From positions 1 through 30,632 of the IMG/VR virus record IMGVR_UViG_3300038682_000182: DNA of 30,632 nucleotides; one strand, given 5' to 3'. The notes below the pieces were generated by a model. It did not search any database. It saw only the letters and a list, made by a program, of their open reading frames with translations, and was not told the origin of the DNA. Positions 6,239-24,555 of the stretch are shown here, piece after piece. Position 1 is the stretch's first letter; each line of letters starts with the position of its first letter. This stretch comes from a virus. Position numbers and translations under genes: made by a program.

Positions 6239-6263
6239 ACTCTCATCCTTTCTAAACAATCAG

Positions 6264-6336
6264 TCCGCCTGGGGAGACTCGAACTCCCGAACAGGGTGCG
6301 ACCCTGGCCACGTTAGCCGCTACGTGCTACAGGCAG
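6264..6336 (-). tRNA. tRNA-like gene, apparent anticodon CGC (Ala?)
   Basis: A 73-nt cloverleaf-like sequence with a 7-bp acceptor stem (CTGCCTG/CAGGCGG, one G-T pair), a perfect 5-bp T stem (GGGAG/CTCCC) with TTCGAGT loop, and an anticodon arm with loop GTCGCAC, giving anticodon CGC (codon GCG, Ala). The D stem is short (CAC/GTG or shifted CACG/CGTG), one anticodon-stem pair is a mismatch and the variable loop is only about two nt. Pair 3:70 is G-C, not the G-U needed by alanyl-tRNA synthetase, so amino acid identity is doubtful. CCA is not encoded. It lies one base from the preceding tRNA and is probably cut from the same transcript. Confidence 0.65.
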
Positions 6337-6337
6337 A

Positions 6338-6414
6338 TGGCCCCTCCGGCTGGGTTCGAACCAGCAACATCGCAGTTAGAAGCTGCGAACTCTCTCCGTT
6401 TGAGTTACGGAGGG
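6338..6414 (-). tRNA. tRNA-Arg (anticodon TCT), CCA encoded
   Basis: A complete cloverleaf: 7-bp acceptor CCCTCCG/CGGAGGG, D stem ACTC/GAGT with a loop containing GG, anticodon stem CGCAG/CTGCG with loop CTTCTAA, variable loop ATGTT, T arm GCTGG-TTCGAAC-CCAGC, discriminator G and an encoded CCA (6338-6340). It reads AGA. Arg-AGA tRNAs are common in phages whose codon use differs from the host. It is transcribed leftward, ahead of the CGC tRNA. Confidence 0.93.
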
Positions 6415-8483: not shown

Positions 8484-9425
8484 TTAATACTCCAAGGGGT
8501 TCGGGTTAATTTGATACAACATTATATTCTTCAAGTTTGTCTCTCCTTTGCAAACGGGCCGGAAGTCGCACTCTCGATTGAAGTCAAAGCAGCTTGCACC
8601 ATTCATTGGCCGGGCCCCTGTCTTAATCAGTGTTGCAATGTCCATTAGGTTGTTCTCTGCCATCTGATTATCGTGCAGGCTCTTCTCGAAGTCAACCCTT
8701 TTCAACAGAGAATCTCCACCCTCAAGGAGATACTTCGCGACCCGCGCCTTAAACTCCGCATCTCCTTCTGTGCGCAGCCTTGTTCCGGGCTTTGGGTCGC
8801 CCTTCTTGCCGTACTTGCCGTCACGCTTGTAGAACTCCTGCCTTGCTTTTGGCGTCGCCTTCAGCGGCTTGAGCTGAGGAACCTTGATTACGTCATATTT
8901 GATATATTCGACGTCAAAGCCAGACATCCGAGCGGCATAGACGTAGCTATCGGCCTGTGTGTTGATTTCCTTACGTTCCCAATATCGCTCCCCGTCGTCA
9001 ATCTTGGAGCGCGTTGTCTTGTGCTCCATGATGAAAAGTCGGCCCTCCCGGTCCCGACAGATGCCGTCAAACTTGCCACGGAAGATTGTGCCATCGGGAA
9101 GAGTCACACAGAACGGACGCTCAGCGTGGAGATACTCAATGCCATCGTTCTTGTAACGCTCATTATAGAGTGCCACGAGCATCTGACCAATAAGCACCTT
9201 ATGCCAGGGCAGCTCCTTTACAGTCCGCGAGAACGCCGCTACTTGCGCGTGGAGGTCCTTTCCTTTGCCTCGGGCCTCAAGGGCGTGGTGCATCCCGGAC
9301 CCAAAGGTTAGGACCGGGTCCTCCTCTGTTGGCTCAAAGCAGAGTTCATACTCGTACTCGTACAGCTTCGGACAGCGAAGGAACGCATCCACTACGGATG
9401 AGCGTAGTATTAGTGAATCACTCAC
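8484..9425 (-). CDS. RecB/Cas4-like PD-(D/E)XK nuclease with Fe-S cysteines
   Basis: A 313-residue nuclease. The catalytic core is visible as GMHHALE (His46/47), GKFDGI (Asp120) and IMEHKTT (Glu134, Lys136), the motif order of RecB/Cas4 exonucleases, with a QADSYVYA helix following. Cys18 (FLRCPKLYEY) and three C-terminal cysteines (Cys279, Cys286, Cys292) match the 4Fe-4S staple of AddB and Cas4 proteins. It probably resects double-strand ends to feed the annealing ATPase next door. The start is GTG at 9425. There is no Cas1, Cas2 or CRISPR array here, so a CRISPR role is unlikely. Confidence 0.85.
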   Translation of the reverse strand: MSDSLILRSSVVDAFLRCPKLYEYEYELCFEPTEEDPVLTFGSGMHHALEARGKGKDLHAQVAAFSRTVKELPWHKVLIGQMLVALYNERYKNDGIEYLHAERPFCVTLPDGTIFRGKFDGICRDREGRLFIMEHKTTRSKIDDGERYWERKEINTQADSYVYAARMSGFDVEYIKYDVIKVPQLKPLKATPKARQEFYKRDGKYGKKGDPKPGTRLRTEGDAEFKARVAKYLLEGGDSLLKRVDFEKSLHDNQMAENNLMDIATLIKTGARPMNGASCFDFNRECDFRPVCKGETNLKNIMLYQINPNPLEY

Positions 9426-11949: not shown

Positions 11950-12158
11950 TCTTCAATCCTTTCAACTCTGACAACGAATCGCCCAAGCCCCTTGTGTAAT
12001 ACGCTGTCTGCTATGGCTCTCTTGACCTGACCCGGTATTAGGGACAACAGGCTGCCTACCCTGAACGCTCCCAGCCCGGTCAAGCCTAACTCAATCTCTG
12101 CCAGGACTTCACTGTTCGTCCCCTCGGGACCTCGACTCACTCCCTTGGCCTCACTCAC
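11946..12158 (-). CDS. First gene of the leftward operon, hypothetical
   Basis: A 70-residue frame starting at GTG 12158 with GAGGG about nine bases upstream. It is the first open frame after the strong promoter at 12303-12331 and its roughly 140-nt leader. The sequence (IELGLTGLGAFRVGSLLSLIPGQVKRAIADS) is helical with a basic C-terminal third. First genes of phage early operons are often host-takeover or regulatory proteins, but nothing here identifies a role. Confidence 0.5.
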   Translation of the reverse strand: MSEAKGVSRGPEGTNSEVLAEIELGLTGLGAFRVGSLLSLIPGQVKRAIADSVLHKGLGRFVVRVERIED

Positions 12159-12300
12159 AAGCTCAGACCCTCACAGACACACCGAAGCGAGCCGCTTGCG
12201 GGTTGCCCGAGGTGGCCAAGCGGAGCGCGGCAGGCGGGGAGCAAACCCAACCTCTCTGGACTTCTCTCTGGTGGGATTGTCCGTGTTACTCGCTGAAGCT
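12159..12300 (-). other. Structured leader RNA of the leftward operon
   Basis: About 140 nt between the promoter and the first GTG. It contains a strong stem (CCGCTTG with CAAGCGG, + strand 12190-12222) enclosing a smaller hairpin (CGGG-CAA-CCCG). Positions 12209-12233 match 21 of 25 bases of the rightward leader at 16082-16106 in the same RNA sense. The reading frame across this region overlaps the promoter and is not regarded as a gene. Confidence 0.6.
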
Positions 12301-12302
12301 CG

Positions 12303-12331
12303 ATTATAAAGACTTCCGGGCGGGCTGTCAA
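12303..12331 (-). promoter_or_regulatory. Consensus sigma70 promoter of the leftward operon
   Basis: On the minus strand TTGACA (12331-12326) is followed after exactly 17 bases by TATAAT (12308-12303), a perfect match to the sigma70 consensus. It lies just after the end of the 12346-12555 gene and points into the leader and the 12-kb minus-strand operon. It should be read by unmodified host RNA polymerase immediately after DNA entry. Confidence 0.93.
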
Positions 12332-12345
12332 CATGTTTTTTGCCA

Positions 12346-12555
12346 CTAAAATCCTACCTCTTCTGATATCAGCTCTTTAAGGTGATTCTCAGAAATATTC
12401 GCATTCGCGAGCACTCTGTCCGTAAGCCTTGGCATGCCATTTGCCCAGCTGTATTCGTCCACGAATACGCAGTCAGGGTAGGCTTCGTATGGGATGCTTA
12501 CAGCGCCAATGCGCTCGAGAATGATTCTGTAGAGTCCGGTCTTTCGTTTATTCAT
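12346..12555 (-). CDS. Small hypothetical protein
   Basis: A 69-residue protein with AGGAG about eight bases upstream of its ATG at 12555. Mixed alpha/beta sequence (YRIILERIGAVSIPYEAYPD), no recognised motif. It is the last gene of the lipoprotein operon and ends 15 bases before the -35 box of the consensus leftward promoter. Confidence 0.6.
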   Translation of the reverse strand: MNKRKTGLYRIILERIGAVSIPYEAYPDCVFVDEYSWANGMPRLTDRVLANANISENHLKELISEEVGF

Positions 12556-13127: not shown

Positions 13128-13355
13128 CTATCCTTTCGCGATTTCGTGTGCCAGTGCGATGGGCGTGTGTGAGAGCTTGAGGCTGTGGAAGATGAATGCC
13201 TCAACAGAAAAACTACAATCATCATAGGGGTTGGTGAGCCTGTCTGCCATGTTAATAAGGCCGAGTGAGAGCGCCTTACGCTTAGGAGTAGTCACTCCCA
13301 TGCAGTCAAGACAGCAGCACAAGTCGTCGCAATCGTTAGTGTTTTTGTTTTCCAT
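13128..13355 (-). CDS. Cys-rich small protein with leaderless start
   Basis: A 75-residue protein starting MENKNTNDCDDLCCCLDC, with five cysteines in the first 20 residues that could bind a metal. The frame extends upstream to other starts, but the ATG at 13355 lies six bases after a -10 box and 35 bases from a -35 box, so the mRNA should begin at this ATG. No Shine-Dalgarno site can fit. It is the first gene of the lipoprotein operon. Function unknown. Confidence 0.65.
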   Translation of the reverse strand: MENKNTNDCDDLCCCLDCMGVTTPKRKALSLGLINMADRLTNPYDDCSFSVEAFIFHSLKLSHTPIALAHEIAKG

Positions 13356-13361
13356 GCTCTT

Positions 13362-13390
13362 ATCATGCACCCTGGCGTGGTGGCCGTCAA
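13362..13390 (-). promoter_or_regulatory. Leaderless promoter, leftward (lipoprotein operon)
   Basis: Minus-strand TTGACG (13390-13385), 17-base spacer, CATGAT (13367-13362), then AAGAGC and the ATG of the 75-residue gene. The predicted transcription start coincides with the A of the ATG. It is divergent from the promoter at 13447-13474, with about 56 bases between the two -35 boxes. Confidence 0.65.
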
Positions 13391-13446
13391 GAGGAATCTT
13401 CATTTAATCTCGAGAAAGTTTTCTTTGGAGAAATTGCATTTAGGTG

Positions 13447-13474
13447 TTGACTCCAGAGGCCACAGTGATAAGGT
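13447..13474 (+). promoter_or_regulatory. Leaderless promoter, rightward, first of three
   Basis: TTGACT (13447-13452), 16-base spacer, TAAGGT (13469-13474), then seven bases to ATG 13482. The -35 to ATG distance (35) places the start codon at the predicted +1. The block GTCTTAGCTATGG resembles GTCTAAGTATGG at the 14608 gene. Confidence 0.6.
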
Positions 13475-13481
13475 CTTAGCT

Positions 13482-13850
13482 ATGGAAAACATGAACAACA
13501 AAACGGAATCCGAACTCAACGCCCAAATCAAAGAGCTTGCTCCTGCATGGTGCGGTGATATCGACACCTGGGAGGAAGTCCAGGCTATCCAACGGGGTGG
13601 CTGCGCCTCTGGGGCCTACATGCCAGCGGTTACATATCGCACCGCTGTGGAGCGTATGACAGAGCATGATAGTGCGGTGATGAATTACCTGGACGATATG
13701 GGGGTGGACCTCGGAAGCGTGAATGAGCACCCGTCTTTTGCGGCTATTGCCGTACGCCTGCTTTCGACTGCAGTAGAGTGCTGGGCTGATAGTCTTGACC
13801 TTGAGGATATGGTCTCAGAGATTGAGGGAGCTGACTGGGGCGTGGTCTAG
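13482..13850 (+). CDS. Hypothetical acidic protein with leaderless start
   Basis: A 122-residue acidic protein (MENMNNKTESELNAQIKEL...). I start at ATG 13482 because it sits right after a -35/-10 pair; longer versions of the frame would begin upstream of the promoter. The sequence is helical with Trp and Asp-rich segments (WCGDIDTWEEVQ, VECWADSLDLEDM). No family recognised. The DUF3310-like gene begins at the very next base, so the two are co-transcribed. Confidence 0.65.
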   Translation: MENMNNKTESELNAQIKELAPAWCGDIDTWEEVQAIQRGGCASGAYMPAVTYRTAVERMTEHDSAVMNYLDDMGVDLGSVNEHPSFAAIAVRLLSTAVECWADSLDLEDMVSEIEGADWGVV

Positions 13851-14087
13851 ATGGGCAAGGAAAATAGAGATCCGGTCAGTCACTACATGCGCGGTGGCGT
13901 CGAGTGTATCGACGTCATGAAAGCAATCAGCACACAAGAGGAATTCCGGGGGTATCTGAAGCTCACGGCGATCAAGTATTTGCACCGCCTAGGCGAAAAA
14001 GATGCACCGGCCAGGGAGGTAAAGAAGTGCCTAGACTACGTGACGTGGCTACTGGCCGAGTATCGGCATGGGGATTCGGATGCCTAA
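13851..14087 (+). CDS. DUF3310-like protein
   Basis: A 78-residue protein matching the DUF3310 pattern of many phages: DPVSHYMRGGVECIDVMKAI at the N-terminus (HYxxGGxECID) and a helical LTAIKYLHRLGEKD...EVKKCLDYVTWLL at the C-terminus. The exact function is unknown; in some phages the domain is fused or adjacent to nucleotide-metabolism proteins. Its ATG directly follows the preceding stop, so translation is coupled and no separate promoter is expected. Confidence 0.8.
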   Translation: MGKENRDPVSHYMRGGVECIDVMKAISTQEEFRGYLKLTAIKYLHRLGEKDAPAREVKKCLDYVTWLLAEYRHGDSDA

Positions 14088-14598
14088 GGTGTGCCCAGAC
14101 TGCGGCGCCCCATGGTTAGAAGGTATCACCCCTGCTAGTGCGGGGTGGTGTACTGCAGAGTGCGACCTAGTGGGCCCTAGCGCGCCAGTGTCGGCTGTTT
14201 GGAGTGGTATTCTATGGGTCCCAAGCGGGGCACTAGGCAATAGCGACAGGAACAGATATTACCCTAGCATATGTCCCAGTCTCGTACCTGCTGCTGTCAG
14301 CTCAGCTGTGGCACAAGGCCCGGGCTGGGTGGACGTTATGGGCGAGCATGTCTGTAAGCGGGTCTGGTGGGTCTCCAAGCATTCCGTTGACAGTCCTCCA
14401 GGCTCTGCCAGATCAGCGATGGACCGCGCACCTGGCCACCCCATTAAATCGATTATACCGGTAGTAGTTGCCGGTGAGTATAACCCGATGAGTCTTAGGT
14501 ATGACAAGGCCGCCTACGACCTGCGCTTCGTAGATGGTAGTGATATTTCTTTTGAGAGGGTGCACTTGGCTGTTGACAGCGATGGTGGGAACCCCTAA
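14080..14598 (+). CDS. Hypothetical protein with N-terminal zinc ribbon
   Basis: A 172-residue frame. ATG 14080 overlaps the stop of the DUF3310 gene (ATGCCTAA). It opens with VCPDCGAPWLEG...GWCTAECDL, four cysteines that could bind zinc. The long middle part is Ser/Pro/Val-rich without recognised domain. The last 30 residues overlap the promoter of the next gene (14573-14601). Function unknown. Confidence 0.6.
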   Translation: MPKVCPDCGAPWLEGITPASAGWCTAECDLVGPSAPVSAVWSGILWVPSGALGNSDRNRYYPSICPSLVPAAVSSAVAQGPGWVDVMGEHVCKRVWWVSKHSVDSPPGSARSAMDRAPGHPIKSIIPVVVAGEYNPMSLRYDKAAYDLRFVDGSDISFERVHLAVDSDGGNP

Positions 14599-14601
14599 AG
14601 T
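14573..14601 (+). promoter_or_regulatory. Leaderless promoter, second of three
   Basis: TTGACA (14573-14578), 17-base spacer, TAAAGT (14596-14601), then six bases (CTAAGT) to ATG 14608. The -35 to ATG distance is 35. It lies inside the end of the preceding gene, so its position is constrained by both functions. Confidence 0.65.
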
Positions 14602-14607
14602 CTAAGT

Positions 14608-14775
14608 ATGGAAAGCAAGGAAATGAAATCAATAAACGATTACGCAGAGATGACCCGCGAGTTTCGCAAAGCTGTGCGGTTGCCTGGTGTTAAGGTGACC
14701 AAGGCATCTTCGGTCAGTGTGCTTGAGGCTGCTATTGATGCGGATGTCTGGGCGCTTATTAGAGGAGAGGCGTAG
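14608..14775 (+). CDS. Small hypothetical protein with leaderless start
   Basis: A 55-residue frame (MESKEMKSINDYAEMTREFR...) ending in WALIRGEA. It follows the promoter above so closely that the transcript would begin at the ATG. The first codons (ATGGAAAGCAAGGAA) resemble those of the other leaderless genes (ATGGAAAAC). Helical, with a basic central part. Function unknown. The next gene starts two bases after its stop. Confidence 0.65.
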   Translation: MESKEMKSINDYAEMTREFRKAVRLPGVKVTKASSVSVLEAAIDADVWALIRGEA

Positions 14776-14777
14776 TT

Positions 14778-14978
14778 ATGACTGCCAAGACGTGCTCTGA
14801 CTGTCGGTTCTGGGAAGACCTGCACTTTCGTACCAATGAGTGCCATCGGAGGTCTCCACAGTTTACTGGCGCACATAGCAATTCTGGGTGGCCCACGACC
14901 TGCGCGAACGACTGGTGCGGTGAGTTCCAGCCCAAGGCCGAGGAGAAGCCAGGTAGGGCGATTTATCGTGAGTATTAG
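14778..14978 (+). CDS. Small zinc-finger-like phage protein
   Basis: A 66-residue protein with a recurrent phage pattern: TCSDCRFWE at the N-terminus, a single Cys (NECHRRSP) in the middle, and WPTTCANDWCGEFQP near the end. Five to six cysteines are suitably placed for one zinc. Function unknown. It begins two bases after the previous stop, with AGAGGAGAGG upstream inside that gene serving as a ribosome site. Confidence 0.75.
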   Translation: MTAKTCSDCRFWEDLHFRTNECHRRSPQFTGAHSNSGWPTTCANDWCGEFQPKAEEKPGRAIYREY

Positions 14979-14989
14979 TCGATTACACA

Positions 14990-15017
14990 TTGACACCATG
15001 GCTGAATGCTGTACTGT
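14990..15017 (+). promoter_or_regulatory. Leaderless promoter, third of three
   Basis: TTGACA (14990-14995), 16-base spacer, TACTGT (15012-15017), then six bases (ATAGAT) to ATG 15024. The -10 is weak (three of six), but the -35 is perfect and the 34-base distance to the ATG repeats the pattern of the other units. Confidence 0.55.
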
Positions 15018-15023
15018 ATAGAT

Positions 15024-15206
15024 ATGGTCATCAAGCAAAGCATCTACTCTAAGCGTCGTCCCTACCAGTTTGGCGATGCAACCAGGAGGTTCATTGAGGC
15101 TAACCCGGTCACTGAGAGTCGAGGTCGGGTGCCTTGGTGCACTCCGGCTGAGGACCTGGGGCAGTGGCCCAGTGAGGGTGATTCGGTGGGGACCAAGGTT
15201 CTTTAG
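15024..15206 (+). CDS. Small hypothetical protein with leaderless start
   Basis: A 60-residue frame from ATG 15024 (MVIKQSIYSKRRPYQFGDATRR...). The ATG is at the predicted transcription start of the promoter at 14990-15017, so earlier in-frame starts would not be on this transcript. The protein is basic at the N-terminus with Trp and Pro in the second half (RVPWCTPAEDLGQWP). Unknown function. It is the last gene before the long untranslated region. Confidence 0.55.
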   Translation: MVIKQSIYSKRRPYQFGDATRRFIEANPVTESRGRVPWCTPAEDLGQWPSEGDSVGTKVL

Positions 15207-15225
15207 TGGGTGTGACTGCTTGTTC

Positions 15226-15244
15226 ACAGTACCCCCGGTACTGT
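15226..15244 (+). terminator. Perfect 8-bp hairpin after the small-gene cluster
   Basis: ACAGTACC and GGTACTGT flank a CCC loop, a perfect 8-bp stem 20 bases after the stop of the last small gene. There is no U-run, so it may be a transcript 3' end or stabiliser rather than a true intrinsic terminator. It could equally be a protein-binding dyad. Confidence 0.4.
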
Positions 15245-15800
15245 AGTGGGGTATGAGGGTATAGGAGGCTATTAGCTAAACCACAACCCCGCCCAAACCC
15301 ATAAGCCCAGCTGATACCTAACCCAGCAATCCCAGCCCAATACTCAACCAAGGAGTCTATAACCAACCTATCGAGCCAACATACCACCAGAGGGCCCAAA
15401 ACAGGCCCCTAAGAGCCGCAACACCGAGTGGAGTACCCTGGACTAACACCAGGTCCAACGGGGCTCACAGGGGCAGAGAGAGGGCCTCTCAGGGTGAGGG
15501 TCAAAGACAACACCGGGGGCTCTAGACTGGGGTCAGTTCCCCCCTAAGTTTTCCCCGGAAGTGGCGCCCAACTCACGCTAAGGGTAGAGAATTTTTGAGT
15601 TTTACCCTAGACCAACCACTGGGCATCCCGACTCCTCCAAGCAAGACCTCCCGCAAGCCAAGCTCCAGGCCAAATCCGGGCCTTCCCAATATTTTTATAG
15701 AGATACGCCACGGTACAGGCACTTACGGCGCACTCTGTAGCGCACAGGAACCACTAACCCGGCGGACTTCCTACCTTTTCAGCCTAGCACGCTCCTCATA
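15245..15800. other. Untranslated A/C-rich region
   Basis: About 550 bases with no supported gene. The stretch 15270-15420 is strongly A and C rich on the plus strand and poor in G and T, unlike any coding part of the window. A hairpin with an 8-bp stem (CTAAGGGTA with TACCCTAG, one bulge) spans about 15577-15610, and TAGCACGC is present twice near 15784 and 15799. Frames present here start with TTG, lack ribosome sites and have biased composition. Confidence 0.6.
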
Positions 15801-15940
15801 GCACGCCCTACAGAGCGAAGCGACAATACTCTCCCCTGCGCATAAGGGAGCGCAGCGACACATGCCAGGAGCCAAGCGCTAGCGCGGCAGCGATTATTAA
15901 CCTAGAGGCAACCTAGCTGACCGGCAAGTCCCATGCCAAC

Positions 15941-16012
15941 TATTTATAAGAACTCCGGCCCTAAAATATTTATATAATAATTACAGAGACATCAAAGATA
16001 CCTCAAAAATAG
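15941..16012. other. AT-rich patch, candidate DNA unwinding element
   Basis: The most AT-rich stretch seen in the window, including CTAAAATATTTATATAATAA, in an otherwise GC-rich genome. It lies directly between the GAGCGNAGCGA repeats and the strong rightward promoter, in the gap where gene orientation changes. This fits a duplex-opening site for replication, but AT-richness near a promoter can also have other causes. Confidence 0.4.
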
Positions 16013-16015
16013 TGC

Positions 16016-16043
16016 TTGACATCTTCGCTCAGTTTGGTATAAT
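16016..16043 (+). promoter_or_regulatory. Strong rightward sigma70 promoter with flanking dyad
   Basis: TTGACA (16016-16021) and TATAAT (16038-16043) with a 16-base spacer: both boxes are perfect. CGCTCA inside the spacer (16026-16031) and TGAGCG just after the -10 (16044-16049) form an inverted repeat around the -10 box, a good position for a repressor or activator site. It drives the 16.2-kb genes and, if read-through occurs, the late operon. Confidence 0.88.
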
Positions 16044-16200
16044 TGAGCGTAGCGAACCTAAAGGTCCTCTACTCCGTGTTACTACCGCGCTTCGCTTGGT
16101 CTCCTCAGTGAACTTGCAGTTCAGTTCGGAGGGTGTGTTGATTAGTTCTTGTTAGTCCAGGGCTTGGATACTGGGTATCGGGATAAGCGGAGGGGGATGT
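16044..16200 (+). other. Structured leader RNA of the rightward operon
   Basis: About 150 nt of untranslated leader. Positions 16082-16106 match the leftward leader in 21 of 25 bases. Downstream are a TGAACT-TGC-AGTTCA hairpin (16109-16123) and an enclosing CTCC/GGAG stem. TCCGTGTTACT at 16073-16083 is the reverse complement of a segment in the leftward leader RNA. The leader ends with GGAGGGGG before ATG 16201. Confidence 0.6.
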
Positions 16201-16548
16201 ATGAAAACCACGGCATCAGAAATCAAGGATAGCTTAGGCCTAGACCCGGACCGGAAGACCTCCGCACGCTACCTAGCCCTGGTTGAGAGTCACAGGCGCT
16301 CCACCGGGAAAGACCCGGGCCTGCGAAGGAGCGGCAGAACAACTGACATGCTCTGCGAAGCACTAGCGAAAGCAAAGGACGGCCACAGAGTCTCAGTCCG
16401 GGGCCACAGCCATCGCTATACACGGATACTAAGAACCGACCTGCTGAGGATGGCCGGAGAGCTCAATATAAGCTCAGACAAGTTTGTGGCCAAGCATGAA
16501 GACGCGGAGTTCGTGTTTGTAGACCATTATGACCCTAGGAGCGCATGA
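16201..16548 (+). CDS. Small P-loop-like phage protein
   Basis: A 115-residue protein. The central SGRTTDMLCEALAKAKDGHRVSV resembles phage proteins with a degenerate P-loop (GRTT in place of GKTT/GKST) followed by a helix and a strand. The C-terminal AEFVFVDHYDPR could be a Walker-B-like strand. It has an excellent ribosome site (GGAGGGGG). It is the first gene read from the strong rightward promoter. Whether it binds nucleotide is unproven. Confidence 0.6.
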   Translation: MKTTASEIKDSLGLDPDRKTSARYLALVESHRRSTGKDPGLRRSGRTTDMLCEALAKAKDGHRVSVRGHSHRYTRILRTDLLRMAGELNISSDKFVAKHEDAEFVFVDHYDPRSA

Positions 16549-23298: not shown

Positions 23299-24555
23299 AT
23301 GGCTATTTCTTCTGCAGCTTCAACGCGCGCCGCACTCGCAGCCGCCTATAAGGAGCTATTCCCCGACAAACGCCTTGAGCAGACCGCTCTCATGGACCGC
23401 GACATCATGAAGTGGCTTCCTAAGGCAGACGACCTCGAGGGTGATGGCATTCACATCCCCATCCGCTACGGCATGCCTCAAGGCGGAGGCGCTAACTTTG
23501 GTCAAGGCCAAGCTAACGTCACCTCTGGCAAGGTAAAGCGCACGTTCATTGAGCGCAATAAGTACTACGGCTTTGTGTCCATCGACGATGAGGCTGTTCG
23601 GTCTTCTCGCTCGAAGAAGGGCGCCTTCTACGGAGTGAAAGAGGTCGAAATTGAGGATATGATTCAAAATATCGCTCAACGCCTTGAGACTCACCTCTGG
23701 CGCGACGGCTCTGGTGCACTTGGTACCGTTAGCTCGGTCTCCGGTGGAGTTGTTACCCTCACAAACCCCGAGGACGTGGCTAACTTCCAAATCGGCGCTC
23801 CTATCGCCGCTCTCGAGGGTGCAACCACGGTAGCTCGCAACGATACCGTCACTGCTGTGACCGGTGTTGACTCCGCAGCTGGCACCATCACCTTTGCCGA
23901 CGACAAGGACGACGGTGACGCATGGGCAGCTAACGACCGCCTCGTGCTCTGCCAGCTTGGCTACACTCTGTCCGCTACGGACCTTGCTGTAACCACGGGC
24001 ATCTCGGACTACGAGAACGTCGTCTCCGGGCTTAGCGCTTGGATTCCCGCTACGGCTGAGACCTCTGGAACGTTCCTCGGAATGGACCGCACTGATGACG
24101 TCGACCGCCTCCAGGGCTTCCGGCAGGGCTACATTGGCTCCATTGAGGAGACCATCAAGAAGCTCCGCAGCCGCATGGGCCGCTACAGCGCTCGACCTGA
24201 CAGCATCTGGCTGTCACACGACAACTGGCACCGACTTGAGCTTGAGCTTGGCAGCCGCGCCGTCCGAGATGATGGCTCTGCAGCTACGTTTGGTCTCCCC
24301 ACCATCAAATACTCGTCTCCTAAGGGCGTGATGAAGGTGTACGCTGGTGCATTCTGCGAAGAGGATGTCGGATACCTTCTCCGACGAGACTCCTGGAAGA
24401 TTCATCACCTTGATGGCCTTCCTCACCTCATCATGAGCGATGGTCTCCGCTCGACCCGTGGACAGGACTACGACGGCATCGAAGTTCGCGCTCGTTACTG
24501 GGCAGAGCTTGCTTGCGATTCTCCCTTCCACAACGGCCGCTTCGTAATCGGCTAA
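23299..24555 (+). CDS. Major capsid protein
   Basis: A 418-residue protein directly after the scaffold gene. It starts MAISSAASTRAALAAAYKEL, has an E-loop-like region (GGGANFGQGQANVTSG), a spine-helix-like segment (EVEIEDMIQNIAQRLETHLW) and a P-domain style SIEETIKKLRSRMGRYSARPDSIWLS. Between residues about 145 and 230 is a Thr/Gly/Val-rich insertion that looks like an added beta domain. The HK97 fold is inferred from arrangement and size. It would form the icosahedral head. Confidence 0.88.
   Translation: MAISSAASTRAALAAAYKELFPDKRLEQTALMDRDIMKWLPKADDLEGDGIHIPIRYGMPQGGGANFGQGQANVTSGKVKRTFIERNKYYGFVSIDDEAVRSSRSKKGAFYGVKEVEIEDMIQNIAQRLETHLWRDGSGALGTVSSVSGGVVTLTNPEDVANFQIGAPIAALEGATTVARNDTVTAVTGVDSAAGTITFADDKDDGDAWAANDRLVLCQLGYTLSATDLAVTTGISDYENVVSGLSAWIPATAETSGTFLGMDRTDDVDRLQGFRQGYIGSIEETIKKLRSRMGRYSARPDSIWLSHDNWHRLELELGSRAVRDDGSAATFGLPTIKYSSPKGVMKVYAGAFCEEDVGYLLRRDSWKIHHLDGLPHLIMSDGLRSTRGQDYDGIEVRARYWAELACDSPFHNGRFVIG

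Follow-up and report, generated by a model that had tools for sequence, protein, structure and literature searches.

The stretch of DNA analysed here (the window) is a virus record of 30,632 bases with ∼55% G+C that encodes podovirus-type proteins, namely TerL, a head-tail adaptor/portal-like protein, and an internal virion protein. Two runs of open reading frames diverge, the leftward one starting at position 13355 and the rightward one at position 13482. In the leftward operon the first open reading frame is followed by 29 more down to position 308, among them those for a Sak4-like annealing protein, a Cas4-like exonuclease, a DnaB-like helicase, and a RusA-like resolvase. Rfam identified two tRNAs and nothing else in the window. 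Beside the tRNA-Arg gene lies a tRNA-like stretch (6262-6340, minus strand) with the T-arm GGGAGTTCGAGTCTCCC and a plausible acceptor pairing, which was called neither by ARAGORN nor by Rfam. The features of the divergent region and of the sequence to its right are as follows, with distances counted from TTGAC to the ATG.

13128-13355, minus strand: 75-aa open reading frame, first of the leftward operon
13356-13390, minus strand: PL, predicted leaderless promoter, TTGACG-17-CATGAT-6-ATG; predicted +1 is the A of the ATG at 13355; distance 35
13447-13481, plus strand: PR1, predicted leaderless promoter, TTGACT-16-TAAGGT-7-ATG; ATG at 13482; distance 35
13482-13850, plus strand: 122-aa open reading frame of PHROG 12388, weakly DUF7222-like, under the Pfam cut-off
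13851-14087, plus strand: DUF3310 protein in the same transcription unit as 13482, not leaderless
14068-14598, plus strand: open reading frame in the 13482 transcription unit, not leaderless
14573-14607, plus strand: PR2, predicted leaderless promoter, TTGACA-17-TAAAGT-6-ATG; ATG at 14608; distance 35; overlaps the 3′ end of the preceding open reading frame
14608-14775, plus strand: 55-aa open reading frame with no in-frame start upstream
14990-15023, plus strand: PR3, predicted leaderless promoter, TTGACA-16-TACTGT-6-ATG; ATG at 15024; distance 34
15024-15206, plus strand: 60-aa open reading frame; the alternative in-frame ATG at 15006 sits within the promoter spacer
16016-16043, plus strand: for contrast, a leadered promoter with perfect TTGACA-16-TATAAT, a leader of ∼150 nt and a strong Shine-Dalgarno (SD) site before gene 16201

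The two open reading frames that follow the 122-aa frame in its transcription unit are adjacent or overlapping and are possibly translationally coupled. The promoter at 16016 precedes the rightward block that begins at 16201 and leads into the structural genes. Originally the four leaderless-type sites had been assigned to an accessory island. This assignment is doubtful, as the divergent pair heads the leftward replication/recombination operon and a short rightward block; this position rather suggests that the pair is the early control region of the phage.

Several further elements were noted around these operons. Inside the leftward operon, within the open reading frame 12155-12346, a perfect TTGACA-17-TATAAT is found on the minus strand (12303-12331) and probably acts as a second promoter of leftward transcription. 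No convincing gene is seen in the ∼1 kb (15207-16200) that separates the small-ORF block from the structural block. Besides the perfect promoter at 16016, this region contains a perfect 13-nt inverted repeat (15436-15448 and 16150-16162) and, near 15938-15982, AT-rich ATTTATA stretches, and it could possibly be an origin or a packaging region. In addition, GAGCGNAGCGA is present in three copies on the plus strand (15813, 15848, and 16045), one of them directly after the -10 box of the 16016 promoter, and a less exact copy, GAGCTTCAGCGA, comes after the -10 box of the minus-strand promoter at 12331. It is possible that these elements are an operator shared by both perfect promoters.

The original prediction described four sites with TTGAC-to-ATG distances of 35, 35, 35, and 34 bases, and on re-reading the coordinates and the spacing proved to be as claimed. 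The -10 boxes had been called imperfect, matching at three to four of six positions. This is true with regard to the Escherichia coli consensus TATAAT, but three of the four boxes (TAAGGT, TAAAGT, and TACTGT, with a gap of 6-7 bases to the ATG) fully match TANNNT, the consensus of actinobacteria, the presumed hosts. The fourth box (13355), CATGAT, has a C in place of the first T and is a partial match. All four sites have ATG as start codon, one of the two start codons (ATG or GTG) of leaderless SigA-type starts. The near identity of the first codons was recovered for the two divergent genes, which match over 16 nt at their starts, ATGGAAAACAAAAACA (13340-13355) and ATGGAAAACATGAACA (13482-13497) being 88% identical.

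Most other genes of the window carry an SD site. The claim that the four promoters leave no room for one is mostly right: a useful SD site is missing at the starts 14608 and 15024, but a weak AAGG is present at 13482, 8 nt before the ATG and inside the -10 box, and an AAGAG abuts the ATG at 13355. These two motifs are the only SD-like signals at their starts. The energies of the duplexes with the anti-SD sequence range from -0.7 to -6.3 for the four starts, compared to a median of -8.3 for the other genes. Furthermore, the 5′ ends of the four predicted mRNAs are unusually unstructured, with minimum free energies of the first 45 nt between -0.4 and -2.6 kcal/mol versus a mean of -7.2 kcal/mol for other genes.

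Upstream in-frame ATGs exist in three of the four open reading frames (13403 on the minus strand, 13365 and 15006 on the plus strand), and the start assignment is therefore partly putative. For the gene at 13482 it can be compared with homologues from IMG/VR loci: 21 of 61 start at the identical residue and most others within a few residues, while most of them have GGAG-type SD sites. As the N-termini agree but the homologues use SD sites, the start at 13482 is sound, and here the predicted promoter has taken the place of the SD site. These observations bear on the strongest competing explanation, namely that the boxes are real but the mRNAs are leadered, being started elsewhere or translated from an upstream (13403, 13365, or 15006) or a downstream ATG. 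The upstream ATGs and the AAGG before the 13482 ATG would fit. However, none of the upstream ATGs has a good SD site and all are located within or ahead of the promoter, the homologues back the start at 13482, the 14608 frame offers no alternative upstream, and the register of 34 or 35 bases at all four sites would need a coincidence. We therefore consider leadered mRNAs unlikely.

Another explanation would be that the TTGAC boxes serve a phage regulator as operators and are not promoters, so that the spacing results from the position of the regulator near the start. In fact both divergent sites have GGCCAC and TGATAAG stretches in addition to TTGAC. These stretches, however, stand in different registers and are missing at 14608 and 15024, and a repeat search of 13300-13520 revealed neither direct repeats nor a short-spaced palindrome. 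Since in addition the -35 and -10 boxes taken together have a geometry that suits SigA and is seen again in unrelated actinophages (see below), operators are a very improbable explanation.

The pattern itself is genuine and greatly exceeds chance expectation. With both strands of the window counted, the ATGs that open at least 40 codons and have TTGAC at 34 or 35 bases number exactly four, at 13355 (minus strand), 13482, 14608, and 15024. In 400 first-order Markov shuffles, a null that is independent of the assignment of gene starts, such ATGs numbered 0.30 on average and 3 at most, and any 1.7 kb held two or fewer. When the assigned ATG gene starts are considered, 4 of 39 carry TTGAC at this distance compared to 1 among the 915 other ATGs (p ∼1.2e-5, Fisher test), a value that is optimistic because we assigned the gene starts with the four sites included. 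Both comparisons, with shuffled sequence and with random ATGs, had been proposed along with the original prediction and came out in its favour. Thus, although TTGAC and TANNNT are short motifs, the shuffled counts, the Fisher p of ∼1e-5, and the in-register TANNNT at three of the four sites make a coincidental set of matches a negligible prospect.

The same geometry was counted in other phages as a joint pattern, that is TTGAC at 34-36 bases together with TANNNT at a gap of 6-7 before open reading frames starting with ATG or GTG. In 80 IMG/VR loci with relatives of the exonuclease (1.23 Mb) 27 joint patterns were found, whereas displaced patterns gave a mean of 5.0 and a maximum of 13. The counts at register shifts of -2, -1, 0, 1, and 2 are 3, 21, 27, 5, and 0, so that the optimum is sharp, lies at the leaderless register, and corresponds to a roughly five-fold enrichment. 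The IMG/VR loci in which gene 13482 has a homologue served as control phage loci (0.52 Mb) and yielded no enrichment, with 1 joint pattern versus 1.8 for the null. Outside the window the modal distance from the -35 box to the ATG is 35 (23 of 35 hits). In Curtobacterium phage Shrew (PQ868981) five exact annotated CDS starts carry TTGACN-17-TANNNT-6/7-ATG with a distance of 35-36 (6665, 10423, 12269, 61182, and, on the minus strand, 56025, in record coordinates). The same scan gave zero hits in Microbacterium phage Schubert and Mycobacterium phage Muddy, and thus the geometry is not used by every actinophage. Two further leaderless-type promoters of Shrew point to in-frame ATGs other than the annotated ones, one (L151:4652) 114 nt downstream of the start of gene 11 and one (L152:28715) 27 nt upstream of the start of gene 111, suggesting from the sequence that these two start annotations may be wrong.

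The exonuclease (8484-9425) also gives a hint to the host. Among the 212 phage records that it matches, 210 carry the name of an actinobacterial host (Microbacterium 190, Mycobacterium 7, Gordonia 7, Corynebacterium 4, Curtobacterium 1, and Mycobacteroides 1); one of the remaining two is a Weizmannia phage, the other a Caudoviricetes record without assignment. The gene order exonuclease-small ORF-ATPase is common to the window and Shrew, and the leaderless geometry is a further argument for an actinobacterial host. As the matches of Sak4 and TerL are mixed or proteobacterial, such a host is something we infer, and the window is probably an actinophage as judged from protein similarity. Close relatives were found neither by megablast of 10 kb against phages nor in IMG/VR with TerL, the portal, or the protein 23299-24555, and each of the 65 IMG/VR loci that carry a homologue of gene 13482 has at most one other gene in common with the window. 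A scan of genome contigs with the exonuclease alignment returned one distant match, a contig of a Planctomycetota MAG, which is uninformative on the host.

Promoter spacing, the scarcity of SD sites, the unstructured 5′ ends, and the start positions of the homologues agree, and therefore leaderless initiation is likely. Of the original prediction the leaderless reading thus stands as the best supported one, but the supposed rarity finds no support. We consider it likely that the four sites are host-type SigA promoters giving leaderless mRNAs; promoter activity, the position of +1, the actinobacterial host, and the early timing are what we infer. The host polymerase with a sigma factor of the SigA/sigma-70 group would begin the transcript with the A of the start codon, and actinobacterial ribosomes would bind the 5′-terminal AUG of the leaderless mRNA directly. 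PL and PR1 would form a divergent control point at 13.36-13.48 kb, with PL directed leftward into the replication/recombination operon and PR1 rightward, and the early leftward unit and the early rightward unit probably start from this pair. PR2 and PR3 would re-start transcription inside the short small-ORF block, and the later genes of each unit would rely on SD sites or coupling as usual. The structural block would be served by the perfect-consensus promoter at 16016; as this promoter is leadered and followed by a strong SD site, one genome appears to use both modes. It is improbable that the first-expressed gene set is kept free of SD sites as a selected class, for leaderless translation when, in the course of infection, initiation led by SD sites is reduced or lost to competition.

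Leaderless starts give reliable start codons and operon heads for anonymous phage genes. With its fixed 35-base register TTGAC-TANNNT-ATG is usable as a gene-start signal in actinophages; gene callers based on SD sites can miss such starts, and the two Shrew annotations seem to be placed off such a start.

A leaderless phage mRNA is the cI transcript of phage lambda from PRM, but this is a single, activator-dependent gene in an E. coli host. In actinobacteria on average 19% of genes are leaderless, and TANNNT belongs to the TA-like signals ∼12 bp ahead of leaderless starts (PMC3160421). Three of the four sites of the window have their TANNNT box at this position. In Mycobacterium tuberculosis 26% of the genes with a primary transcription start site are leaderless and TANNNT lies 7-12 bp before 73% of the primary start sites (PMC3898074); in Corynebacterium glutamicum 33% of the mRNAs are leaderless (PMC3890552). 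The sites of the window resemble these transcripts in having, at three of four, TANNNT ∼7-12 bp before a start site, here a predicted one, at AUG or GUG and little or no SD signal (PMC3898074, PMC3890552, PMC3160421). The published transcripts are, however, from cellular genes, and M. tuberculosis has no conserved -35 box, whereas TTGAC is present at all four sites here.

Among phages Shrew shares the geometry from promoter to ATG and the exonuclease-ATPase module; its sites, which come from our scan and go unmentioned in the record, are spread across 68 kb and not clustered within 1.7 kb as here. In our search of the literature on leaderless sets in other phages nothing closer than Corndog was found. 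For the cluster O mycobacteriophages (Corndog) leaderless SigA promoters were predicted in 2015, with the divergent pair PL1/PR2 in one intergenic region and PL2 as a third promoter (PMC4351075). Differences are the prolate head and the long, flexible tail of Corndog and, in the window, the tandem arrangement of two of the four promoters inside one small-ORF block. Four such promoters in one region had been regarded as unusual. This view is not supported, as the geometry is general in actinobacteria, is enriched in actinophage-like loci, and has a precedent in the Corndog group (PMC4351075). The predicted leaderless set thus follows a standard gene-start mode of actinobacteria and their phages, densely clustered but mechanistically ordinary.
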